Assembly (NCBI RefSeq): GCF_001636055.1 | Contig: NZ_CP011789.1 | Coordinates: 682,001 to 746,000, forward strand | Direction of reading: 5' to 3' | DNA length: 64,000 nt | Origin: Pseudomonas putida | GTDB taxonomy: Bacteria > Pseudomonadota > Gammaproteobacteria > Pseudomonadales > Pseudomonadaceae | Made by a program: the position numbers and the translations under genes | Part shown: piece after piece, positions 18,057 to 55,700 of the stretch | Layout: every line of letters starts with the position of its first letter | How positions within the stretch are numbered: the stretch's first letter is position 1 | Notes under the pieces: model-generated | What the model saw: only the letters and a program-made list of their open reading frames with translations | What the model was told of the DNA's origin: nothing | Databases searched by the model: none

Positions 18057-18308
18057 TCAGACGCCAGCGTTGCGGCTGACTTCAAGATCATTCAACAACG
18101 CCTTGGCCAGGGCGCTGAGGTAGTGCAGGGCGGTGATTGCCGCAGGGTTTGCCTCCCCTGTGAACTGATCGCTCAGATCACGTGTACAGCCCACCAGCAC
18201 TGAGATTTCTTCGATGGCGCGCTCATAGGGGATACCGGGCTGTACGCGAAACATCTCGAGAAAGGTGGCAACACCTGCGGTGGTGCGACCGGATTGGTTA
18301 CCGCTCAT
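18057..18308 (-). CDS. DUF3077 family protein, copy 1
   Basis: This small soluble 83-aa protein contains TTAGVATFLEMFRVQPGI and ALHYLSALAKALLNDLE. It is closely similar along its whole length to the gene at 54741-54986. ATG at 18308 was chosen because AAGGAG lies eight bases before it. It follows the DUF6124 gene by 27 bases. These pairs are frequent in Pseudomonas; their function is not known to me. Predicted mostly helical. Confidence 0.8.
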   Translation of the reverse strand: MSGNQSGRTTAGVATFLEMFRVQPGIPYERAIEEISVLVGCTRDLSDQFTGEANPAAITALHYLSALAKALLNDLEVSRNAGV

Positions 18309-18335
18309 GTTCATCACTCCTTGACGGGCTCAGGG

Positions 18336-18584
18336 TCACATCCGGTTCAGCGCATGTTCGATCAGCGCGCGAGCCGTTTCGGCGGAGTGCGCGGCGTTCG
18401 ACAGCATGTGCAGGCCGGGTACACCGGCATAGGTGCGGCAGTGTTCGTCGATGGTTTCGGCAACACCGCGCAACAGCTCGCTGGCGTGGGCCAGGGCGTC
18501 GGGAGGGGTCATGTCGGTGTGGATGGAGAAGTAGGGGTTGTTGATGAGCTTGAGGCGGGGTGGGTCGGGGACGAGTTTCTTCAT
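18336..18584 (-). CDS. DUF6124 family protein, copy 1
   Basis: This 82-aa protein starts MKKLVPDPPRL, with the helical core ALAHASELLRGVAETIDEH and the end ARALIEHALNRM. It is about three-quarters identical to the gene at 54997-55245, and in both places a DUF3077 gene follows. The paired arrangement and the conserved structured leader suggest a functional unit under post-transcriptional control. No catalytic motif is visible. Confidence 0.82.
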   Translation of the reverse strand: MKKLVPDPPRLKLINNPYFSIHTDMTPPDALAHASELLRGVAETIDEHCRTYAGVPGLHMLSNAAHSAETARALIEHALNRM

Positions 18585-18604
18585 GGTTCAACTCCTGGAC
18601 GACA

Positions 18605-18780
18605 TCTGGAGCTGCCATCAGAACCCTTCTCACGGATTAGGGTGGCAGCCGTGCACGAGGTGAGAAGTCCGTGGTCCAGGGACACGGCCAGGTCGAAACC
18701 TGCTCGCGCACGGCTACCATGACGGGAAGCCATTCCTGAAACACTTGGGCTTCTCACACCCAGTCGCCAATGTGGGCGAC
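18605..18780 (-). ncRNA. Structured leader RNA of the DUF6124-DUF3077 pair, copy 1
   Basis: Read on the minus strand, a hairpin (GTCGCC/GGCGAC) is followed by word 1 GTGAGAAG (18750-18757), a stem arm S (18703-18717), a TTCG hairpin (18689-18702), word 2 CTTCTCAC (18660-18667), arm S' (18645-18659), word 3 GTGAGAAG (18626-18633), then GGCAGC (18611-18616), and the ribosome site. Word 2 can pair with word 1 or word 3. S pairs with S' over 15 bases with one wobble, and the GCTGCC inside S' could instead pair with GGCAGC beside the ribosome site. The same plan recurs at 55265-55465 with different sequences. Confidence 0.65.
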
Positions 18781-18920
18781 CCAGCGAAGTTATCCCTGAG
18801 GTATTTCCCCGACAATTAAGAGGCTTCCGCAAAGCGCGTAGGATACTTCCCAAGGTTTACGGATCGAAGGCTCCTGCTAGAGGTTTCAGAACTTTCGTAC
18901 GTTGGCGGCCGCTGCGCGCC

Positions 18921-31664: not shown

Positions 31665-31886
31665 ATGAGCGAGCAACCGCGGCCGCCCAAGCCGCTCTAC
31701 AGCAACGTCAGCCCGGCCGTGCCTTCGCCGTGCATCAGCGTCTGCCGACTCGACGAGCGTCGGGTCTGCACCGGATGCATGCGGCATGTGGAGCATATCC
31801 GTGAATGGCGTTCGGCCGATGACGAACGGCGGCGGCAGATCTGCCGCGAGGCCGACGCGCTGAGGGCTTCGACGCCACAGGCTTGA
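31665..31886 (+). CDS. DUF1289 protein
   Basis: This 73-aa protein has a four-cysteine pattern: C in PSPCISVCRLD and in RVCTGCMRHVEHI, probably binding a metal. The start lies one base after the cyaY stop, so it is co-translated with frataxin. The family is widespread in proteobacteria; the function is unknown. A link with iron-sulfur chemistry is inference from context. Confidence 0.85.
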   Translation: MSEQPRPPKPLYSNVSPAVPSPCISVCRLDERRVCTGCMRHVEHIREWRSADDERRRQICREADALRASTPQA

Positions 31887-31943
31887 GTATTTGCCCGGCT
31901 GTGGTAGTGTCAATCCGGTACTGGCCGCGCCAGAAGCATTCTC

Positions 31944-31968
31944 AAACCCCGCCCTTGGGCGGGGTTTT
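31944..31968. terminator. Rho-independent terminator after cyaY-DUF1289
   Basis: AAACCCCGCCC/GGGCGGGGTTT stem with a two-base centre, followed by one more T. Confidence 0.88.
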
Positions 31969-32017
31969 GCTTTATCTACAGCTTGAAATACTTCGTTGAA
32001 AGGAGTCTGACTGGACC

Positions 32018-54532: not shown

Positions 54533-54609
54533 TGGCGCACTCGGCGGGATTCGAACCCACGACCCCTGCCTTCGGAGGGCAGTACTCTATCCAGCTGAGC
54601 TACGAGTGC
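54533..54609 (-). tRNA. tRNA-Arg(CCG)
   Basis: The minus strand reads GCACTCGTAGCTCAGCTGGA... with a normal D arm, anticodon loop CTCCGAA (anticodon CCG, reading CGG), T arm GGTTCGAATCC and a CCA end encoded. 77 bases; acceptor stem GCACTCG pairs with CGAGTGC. Confidence 0.96.
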
Positions 54610-54740: not shown

Positions 54741-54986
54741 TCAATGCACGCTGTTGCGCGCAATCTCCAGATCATTCATCAACCCTTTGGCCAGGGCGCT
54801 GAGGTAGTGCAGTGCCGTTACTGCGGCAGGGCGCGCGTCTTCCTGGTCGCTCAGGTCACGGATGCAGCCGAGCACGACCGAGACTTCCTCCAGCACCCGC
54901 TCCAGCGGTACGCCGGGCTGCACCCTGAATATATCCAGGAATGTGGCGATGCCGGCAGTGGTGTAGTGGTTCGATTGATCGTCCAT
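54741..54986 (-). CDS. DUF3077 family protein, copy 2
   Basis: This 81-aa protein with TTAGIATFLDIFRVQPGV and ALHYLSALAKGLMNDLE is paralogous to the gene at 18057. ATG at 54986 has GAGG eight bases upstream; the ATG at 54992 sits inside the ribosome site. It follows its DUF6124 partner by ten bases, tighter than in copy 1. Confidence 0.82.
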   Translation of the reverse strand: MDDQSNHYTTAGIATFLDIFRVQPGVPLERVLEEVSVVLGCIRDLSDQEDARPAAVTALHYLSALAKGLMNDLEIARNSVH

Positions 54987-54996
54987 GGACATTCCC

Positions 54997-55245
54997 TCAG
55001 ATCCGGTTCAAGGCATGTTCAACCAGTGCCCGCGCGGTTTCGGCGCTTTGGGCAGCGTTGGCCAGCATGTTCAGGCCGGGCGCTCCGGCGCAGGAGCGGC
55101 AGTGTTCGTCGATGGTCTCGGCAACGCCGAGCAGCAGTGCGCTGGCGTGGGCCAGGGCGTCGGGGGCGATCATGTCGGTTTGGATGGAGAAGGCGGGATT
55201 GGTGATGAGGGTGAGGCGGGGTGGGTCGGGGACGCGTTTTTTCAT
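54997..55245 (-). CDS. DUF6124 family protein, copy 2
   Basis: This 82-aa protein starts MKKRVPDPPRLTLITNPAF, with the same length as copy 1 and the same ending ARALVEHALNRI. The pair and leader are preserved although flanks differ, which points to a mobile or duplicated unit. Function unknown. Confidence 0.84.
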   Translation of the reverse strand: MKKRVPDPPRLTLITNPAFSIQTDMIAPDALAHASALLLGVAETIDEHCRSCAGAPGLNMLANAAQSAETARALVEHALNRI

Positions 55246-55257
55246 GGCTACAGCTCC

Positions 55258-55465
55258 GTCTTGTTAGAGCTGCCGCAGATCCGTGGCTAAACGAATAGGT
55301 GGCAGCTGTACGCGGGTTAGCCAACCGGGAAGACGGCACCCGGCGCACCCGAAGGTGCCCCACGCACAGCCGCCATGAAGCACCAGAGCAATACTCTGGA
55401 ATAGTGGAGGCGAGGTGCGACCGTCTTTGATCCGAGTGGCTAAACCCGATCGTTGATTTGGCAAC
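55258..55465 (-). ncRNA. Structured leader RNA of the DUF6124-DUF3077 pair, copy 2
   Basis: On the minus strand the order repeats that of copy 1: a hairpin (CGTTG/CAACG), word 1 GTTTAGCCAC (55436-55445), a stem arm GGCGGCTGTGCG, a TTCG hairpin (55345-55358), word 2 GTTGGCTAAC (55316-55325), the complementary arm CGCGTACAGCTGCC, word 3 GTTTAGCCAC (55283-55292) and GGCAGC (55269-55274) near the ribosome site. Words differ from copy 1, but the complementarity is kept. Confidence 0.65.
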
Positions 55466-55700
55466 GAGCGGGCGAGCCTAGAGCGCGCCGCAGGCCTCTC
55501 GCAATGGCTTGAGTGCGGCAAAAGTGTCTTTGGGAAATGGACTACGCGCAATGGGGAAAATCTGATGTAGGACTTGCCCAGGGCCAGGCTTCATTGTCGA
55601 AAAATGCAAAAGAAAGCTCGAAATTCCTTCTCGGATGACCGATTATCGCAGTACTACTCAGCCTCGTACGCAGCGATTAAGTTCGCTGGCCGTTGAGGTG

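Follow-up and report, generated by a model that had tools for sequence, protein, structure and literature searches.

C4-family antisense RNAs in the leaders of two small-gene operons of Pseudomonas putida, and their probable action on the operons that carry them

What kind of RNA repeats one short word on either side of its reverse complement, in front of a pair of small genes, and does so again elsewhere in the same chromosome with different letters? The question is raised by two leaders on the minus strand of a 64,000-nucleotide stretch of Pseudomonas putida (NZ_CP011789.1, positions 682,001 to 746,000), which we call the window and within which all coordinates below are given. Behind the two leaders lie the following genes:

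18336..18584, minus strand: first gene of locus 1, an 82-aa Pseudomonas hypothetical protein; DUF6124 at 15.4 bits, below the cut-off of 27
18057..18317, minus strand: second gene of locus 1, DUF3077 (PF11275, 30.7 bits, cut-off 21)
54997..55245, minus strand: first gene of locus 2, an 82-aa Pseudomonas hypothetical protein; no DUF6124 match
54741..54992, minus strand: second gene of locus 2, DUF3077 (PF11275, 33.1 bits, cut-off 21)

A first-pass annotation, made from the letters of the window, had named the gene downstream as DUF6124, but both first genes miss the PF19619 cut-off of 27 (15.4 bits at locus 1, no match at locus 2), and the label is weak for both. The first genes of locus 1, locus 2 and their relatives align with one another, and that of locus 2 belongs to a large DUF6124/DUF3077 similarity cluster. 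The two products of locus 2 are modelled as small all-helical proteins, with a mean pLDDT of 84.0 for the first gene and 72.1 for the second. PHROG 36471 matches both second genes, and the DUF3077 protein of locus 2 found no tblastn match in the phage or plasmid sets. Our literature search, which covered open-licence papers, met DUF6124 nowhere by name and DUF3077 in a single paper. In a furfural-tolerant P. putida line, a one-base insertion is said to reopen a DUF3077 pseudogene (PMC9630843).

Both leaders contain a domain that Rfam assigns to the C4 antisense RNA family, preceded by an element resembling a second, associated family:

18638..18724, minus strand: C4 antisense RNA domain of locus 1 (Rfam RF01695, 63.8 bits, cut-off 45)
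55295..55380, minus strand: C4 antisense RNA domain of locus 2 (Rfam RF01695, 81 bits, cut-off 45)
18742..18793, minus strand: c4-a1b1 element of locus 1 (RF03163, aligned at full length, 31.6 bits, E 2.8e-6; below the cut-off of 46.7)
55429..55481, minus strand: c4-a1b1 element of locus 2 (RF03163, aligned at full length, 46.0 bits, E 1.1e-10; just below the cut-off of 46.7)

The C4 domains fold at -46 kcal/mol (z -5.15) at locus 1 and -52.6 kcal/mol (z -5.83) at locus 2, in both cases as a three-way junction closed by a 17-pair stem with the word a' left unpaired. The c4-a1b1 RNA, named in a table of Weinberg 2010 (PMC2864571), is described by Rfam as 'a1, b1 targets of C4 antisense RNA', and its upstream a1/b1 hairpins align over their full length here. 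Its score reaches the cut-off of 46.7 at neither window locus, which counts against reading these leaders as C4 brakes on their own operons, the interpretation that we develop below; the complementarity itself is present, a1 matching a' at 7 or more of 8 positions in all 11 C4 loci of the genome. The first-pass annotation knew of no described RNA with such a plan. There is one, since C4 with its a1/b1 and a2/b2 targets is on record (RF01695, RF03163 and the annotation of phage P1), and this known plan explains the striking covariation that had drawn attention to the leaders.

The words can now be laid out in full. At locus 1 the minus strand carries a1, GTGAGAAG, at 18750-18757, then a', CTTCTCAC, at 18660-18667, and a2, again GTGAGAAG, at 18626-18633, so that a1 is an exact copy of a2 and complementary to a'. 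These positions and letters are just as first reported. At locus 2, also on the minus strand, GTTTAGCCAC stands at 55436-55445 and 55283-55292, and GTTGGCTAAC at 55316-55325; the three words are in the places claimed for them, but the complementarity of the 10-mers is only partial and holds for a 7-nt core (TTAGCCA/TGGCTAA). The three words originally noticed correspond to a1, a' and a2 of C4, which has a further set of three, b1, b' and b2, that had been missed:

18750..18757, minus strand: word a1 of locus 1, exact copy of a2 and complementary to a'
18735..18740, minus strand: word b1 of locus 1, weak (6 pairs, one of them G-U; read from the sequence)
18674..18680, minus strand: word b' of locus 1, in C4 hairpin 2; CCTGGAC, complementary to b2
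18660..18667, minus strand: word a' of locus 1, in the unpaired joining strand of C4
18626..18633, minus strand: word a2 of locus 1, in the loop of a short hairpin directly 3' of C4
18594..18600, minus strand: word b2 of locus 1, GTCCAGG, overlapping the Shine-Dalgarno AGGAG (18592-18596)
55437..55443, minus strand: word a1 of locus 2, TTAGCCA
55421..55427, minus strand: word b1 of locus 2, AAGACGG, clear
55330..55336, minus strand: word b' of locus 2, CCGTCTT
55317..55323, minus strand: word a' of locus 2, TGGCTAA
55284..55290, minus strand: word a2 of locus 2, most of it looped out by a weak hairpin
55256..55262, minus strand: word b2 of locus 2, at the ribosome site of the first gene

The order within one unit is thus a1, b1, C4 (which contains b' and a'), a2, b2 together with the Shine-Dalgarno, and the small genes. 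That the last word would lie near the ribosome site was anticipated correctly, as the last word set is found there and b2 overlaps the Shine-Dalgarno at locus 1; the middle word, on the other hand, is not in the loop of a stem as had been proposed, since a' occupies the unpaired joining strand of a stem-closed junction. At both loci a' and b' are complementary to the downstream a2 and b2, and the exact a2 and b2 words of each window locus, 15-35 nt apart, occur jointly a single time in the 5.8 Mb genome, in front of their own operon (a reversed control gave one match for the locus-1 pattern and none for the locus-2 pattern).

How much weight can such a pattern bear? Exact 8-mer triplets of word, anti-word and word within 176 nt occur four times on the minus strand of the window, against 14 in total over 30 first-order Markov sequences of the same length, and one such pattern taken alone is weak evidence. 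Its strength comes from the homologues, the single-window count being weak. We therefore oriented 217 C4 loci (11 from this genome, 55 from genome G049, 42 from G019, 41 from G036, 39 from G005, one from each of 25 other genomes, and 4 from phages) and kept 213 after removing four below 45 bits. The a1 loop was placed blindly, by the letters of its stem alone; eight loci with a stem score below 8 were removed and duplicates were merged, leaving 181 distinct sets. Pairs of columns at least 4 columns apart, among columns of a1, the C4 tail and the bases after C4 with less than 25% gaps, were then ranked by corrected mutual information. All of the top 19 pairs fall on the a1-a', a'-a2 and a1-a2 diagonals; their a1-a' and a'-a2 positions are paired in 88-97% of sets and their a1-a2 positions identical in 83-94%. 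The twentieth pair belongs to the hairpin around a2 and scores 0.234, after 0.339 at place 19. Kinship of the sequences inflates such scores, yet it would not select these diagonals, and the covariation of the a words, first proposed from two loci, is very strong. The words also differ between paralogous loci, as had been claimed: there are 8 distinct a' words among the 11 loci of this genome and 35 among the 55 of G049.

If each C4 acts on the operon that carries it, its words should fit its own leader better than the leaders of its paralogues. The combined a'-a2 and b'-b2 pairing is -22.3 to -24.5 kcal/mol with the own leader, as opposed to -13.8 to -14.8 kcal/mol with others of the same genome. 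In each of five genomes (11, 39, 41, 41 and 52 loci) none of 10,000 permutations reached the excess for the own leader; this test used 184 of 188 C4 loci, four below 45 bits being omitted and three more below-cut-off matches in G005 lying outside the set. Counting ties as best, the own leader is the best target for 10 of 11, 25 of 39, 31 of 41, 31 of 41 and 33 of 52 loci, and these counts fall when either word set is used alone. Wider segments, which include stem strands, were noisy: for a'-a2 they gave no significant result in this genome (2993 of 10,000 permutations) or in 27 single loci (1497 of 10,000), with 7 of 10,000 in G049 and 2 of 10,000 in G019. Loop-only segments were used instead for this reason, and it is these that gave no permutation at all. 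Of 213 loci examined, 179 have a recognised start, and in 161 of them the b2 duplex overlaps an SD-like tetramer, compared with 58-63% for shuffled partners. Several results pull the other way. In G049 the own leader is not the best target for 19 of 52 loci, which counts against C4 as a brake on its own operon. So do the non-significant results with wider segments, the weak b1 of locus 1 and the lower specificity of the upstream a1+b1 pairing, for which the own leader is best in 7 of 11 loci (this genome), 13 of 41 (G019) and 18 of 52 (G049), a poorer record than that of a2+b2.

The closest known systems are the C4 RNAs of phages P1 and P7. The P1 record (NC_005856) is annotated a1, b1, c4, a2, b2, icd, the order seen at the window loci, and the spacing is close without being identical: with the last base of the Rfam C4 match as reference, a2 begins after 0 bases in P1 and after 4 at each locus of the window; the start codon follows after 47 bases in P1, 53 at locus 1 and 49 at locus 2. 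The RNA fold and the position of b2 at the ribosome site are likewise shared. In P1 and P7, C4 undergoes processing and binds the target mRNA through its a' and b' loops, and a few changed bases between the two phages stop cross-reaction (PMC5320573). Unlike the c4-icd-ant operons of these phages, the window loci are chromosomal, have several paralogues and carry DUF6124-like and DUF3077 genes without icd or ant; a P1-type immI arrangement, with icd and ant after C4, was looked for at both window loci and not found there, and this too counts against the brake. P1 and the P. aeruginosa phages PAJU2 and Phipami28 score above the cut-offs for C4 and for c4-a1b1, and phiAH14b for C4 alone; in PAJU2 the next annotated gene after C4 is the anti-repressor Ant. 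Multiplication within a genome has its own precedent in the C4-like Group 1 sRNAs of A. baumannii, present in 21 copies with varied a' in one genome and with processing inferred from RNA-seq coverage (PMC5320573). The account of them in that paper leaves their targets open, while each Pseudomonas C4 has its own a1/b1, a2/b2 and gene. The isrK/STnc1160/orf45-anrP region of Gifsy-1 and the P4 CI RNA with seqA/seqC (PMC4825925) likewise unite an upstream copy, its complement and a downstream start-site segment in one transcript, although isrK has a terminator and the short IsrK activates, which sets it apart from the window loci. The RNA family, the arrangement of its targets, specificity by word changes and multiplication within one genome are thus known in print, and the window loci themselves are additional C4 members. 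What is newer is the scale in the genus and the association with DUF6124/DUF3077 genes; the same search of open-licence papers turned up no report linking C4 to these genes in Pseudomonas.

With stricter filters, 53 of the 59 genomes surveyed in the genus, this one included, have C4 above the cut-off, with 997 matches in total and a maximum of 54 in one genome (a separate run on that genome gave 55 matches, 52 of them over the cut-off). Counts of C4 and of DUF6124 rise together over the 59 genomes (Spearman 0.88). In a class-wide draw under the same stricter filters, only 6 of 143 genomes have C4, again including this one, and the other five have 1 to 3 each. Among the first 135 C4 loci, four of them below 45 bits, a reading frame of the DUF6124/DUF3077 cluster accompanies 104, a second cluster 17, a 53-aa family 12 and a fourth cluster 8, with overlaps between clusters possible. 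Ten cargo representatives compared with Pfam gave two DUF6124, one DUF3077 and one Bro-N over the cut-off and six without any; the Bro-N representative has matches in phage anti-repressor families as well. In host genomes, C4 is followed directly at 8 of the 135 loci, for example G049_6667340+ and G019_6396084+, by a gene of the cluster to which this antirepressor-like Bro-N representative belongs. This Bro-N-type cluster after C4 is a bridge to the phage ant operons.

Taken as a whole, the family match, the layout of the words and their fit to the own leader make it very probable that each of the two leaders contains an antisense RNA of the C4 family acting as a brake on the operon behind it. 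By analogy with P1 and P7, the leader would be transcribed and C4 cut out of it (by RNase P in those phages), after which the free C4 would pair a' with a2 and b' with b2 on the mRNA of its own operon, masking the ribosome site and blocking translation. Pairing of C4 with a1 and b1 would sequester C4 or act on the nascent leader. One observation sits awkwardly with this: a promoter scan of both window leaders gave no sigma-70-like site, which counts against the brake. A different role for the upstream words would be antisense-induced termination, in which the growing leader transcript would tend to end ahead of C4 once a C4 RNA has bound its a1/b1. In P1 and PAJU2 a stem followed by a T run does stand between b1 and C4, and such termination is discussed for P4 CI RNA and STnc1160 (PMC4825925). 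Among loci with a clear a1 (6 of the 213 lacked one and were omitted), our terminator test detected one in all 4 from phages, in 2 of 11 from this genome, in 12 of 24 single loci and, for four other genomes, in 6 of 37, 2 of 40, 3 of 40 and 6 of 51. By the same test, however, most paralogues lack a terminator, and so do both window loci, where the one match lies upstream of the leader. Since no intrinsic terminator separates b1 from C4 there, translational repression is the likelier main effect, and we consider termination unlikely.

The first-pass annotation had suggested a two-state pseudoknot switch acting in cis, in which a' stays in the leader and pairs with either the first or the last copy, so that folding alone sets translation. 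The word a' can indeed pair with both a1 and a2, the isrK leader of Gifsy-1 has two experimentally supported conformations (PMC4825925), and isrK (RF01394) weakly matches locus 2. That match, at 21.4 bits, is far below the cut-off of 50, and locus 1 is not listed at all. C4 is very stable on its own with a' unpaired, as befits a separable antisense domain, and in P1 and P7 it is a processed antisense RNA, according to PMC5320573 and the annotation of the P1 record, whose a' and b' loops bind the target mRNA. The switch is left without support by these comparisons; it is less likely than a C4 antisense brake, and we regard it as rather improbable. The leaders might also be relics, kept by descent from a phage after regulation was lost. 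A phage origin is likely and the products of the window operons are uncharacterised, but at many loci the three word sites have changed together, as those of decaying copies would not, and C4 counts track DUF6124 counts over the genus, which makes a relic very hard to believe in.

If C4 does restrain its own operon, are the words of paralogues kept apart by selection? The first-pass annotation had suggested that diversified words prevent cross-talk, and the part of this that stands is that the own leader is usually the best target; tests for selection gave a mixed picture. When non-cognate pairing was compared within and between G019 (41 loci) and G049 (52 loci), of 131 loci, the fraction of units less than 0.3 similar that pair at -20 kcal/mol or lower was 0.050 within versus 0.070 between for G019 and 0.035 versus 0.029 for G049, an inconsistent result. 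A second test on 184 loci, matched on the similarity of the downstream DNA, gave, for four bins of increasing similarity, one-sided p values of 0.81, 0.036, 0.93 and 0.002; in the last bin (0.6 or more), one b word could stand in for the other in 13% of 86 pairs from the same genome versus 33% of 149 pairs from different genomes, though the pairs are non-independent, the between-genome pairs include likely orthologues and gene conversion could mimic the result. Split more finely, the p values are 0.025, 0.21, 0.052 and 0.11. The evidence for selection against cross-talk between paralogues is at most suggestive. Two tandem units of G005 have an identical b'.

Many of these operons also have a common element upstream:

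18836..18851, minus strand: upstream element GGGAANTNNNCTACGC of locus 1
55532..55547, plus strand: upstream element GGGAANTNNNCTACGC of locus 2, in the orientation opposite to the operon

The genome has six exact sites of GGGAANTNNNCTACGC, all beside C4 loci, that of locus 2 being inverted. With one mismatch allowed there are 25 sites against 16 in a reversed control, so that only the exact sites stand out. In G019 and G049 a near-invariant element of 24 bases is found 94-128 nt upstream of C4 on the same strand in 40 of 40 matches (at most 3 mismatches), with 0 matches for the reversed pattern in the same two genomes; it is absent from the genome of the window. As these patterns were derived from the C4 loci themselves, their absence elsewhere is what counts, and the 24-base element suggests a common regulator in G019 and G049.

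A wider picture can be sketched, although we hold it tentatively and lean slightly towards doubt. In Pseudomonas, C4 may have passed from phage brake to host regulatory network, with at most about 50 dispersed operons for related small helical proteins. Many of these would have a common upstream element, probably under one regulator, and each would be silenced by an antisense RNA of its own through a private a+b address; the b word would diversify more quickly than the coding sequence, allowing new paralogues to come under separate control. Were this true, a single cell would contain antisense brakes of the same family by the dozen, each tied to the target it probably acts on, and the genus-wide set would be natural material for measuring how many base pairs specificity needs. 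Targeting of the own operon would be a concrete answer to the question of chromosomal C4 targets, which the account of Acinetobacter in PMC5320573 leaves open, and the network would offer a starting point for finding out what DUF6124/DUF3077 genes do.

A few smaller observations are recorded here. The C4 leaders of G030 (L020) and of phage phiAH14b (L138) look identical by eye over the stretches compared, and some C4 loci may therefore sit in mobile elements. Tandem C4 operons lie within a few kb of one another at G019:C1:1820921-1827285 and G005:C1:3628832-3630617; in the former, a' is exactly common to two of four units and the three b' loops compared differ, and in the latter, b' is common to two of three. 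Within the window, a tRNA (54536-54609, minus strand) stands beside the locus-2 operon, and a Pseudomonas rnk leader (RF01772) is found at 31873-31976 on the plus strand.
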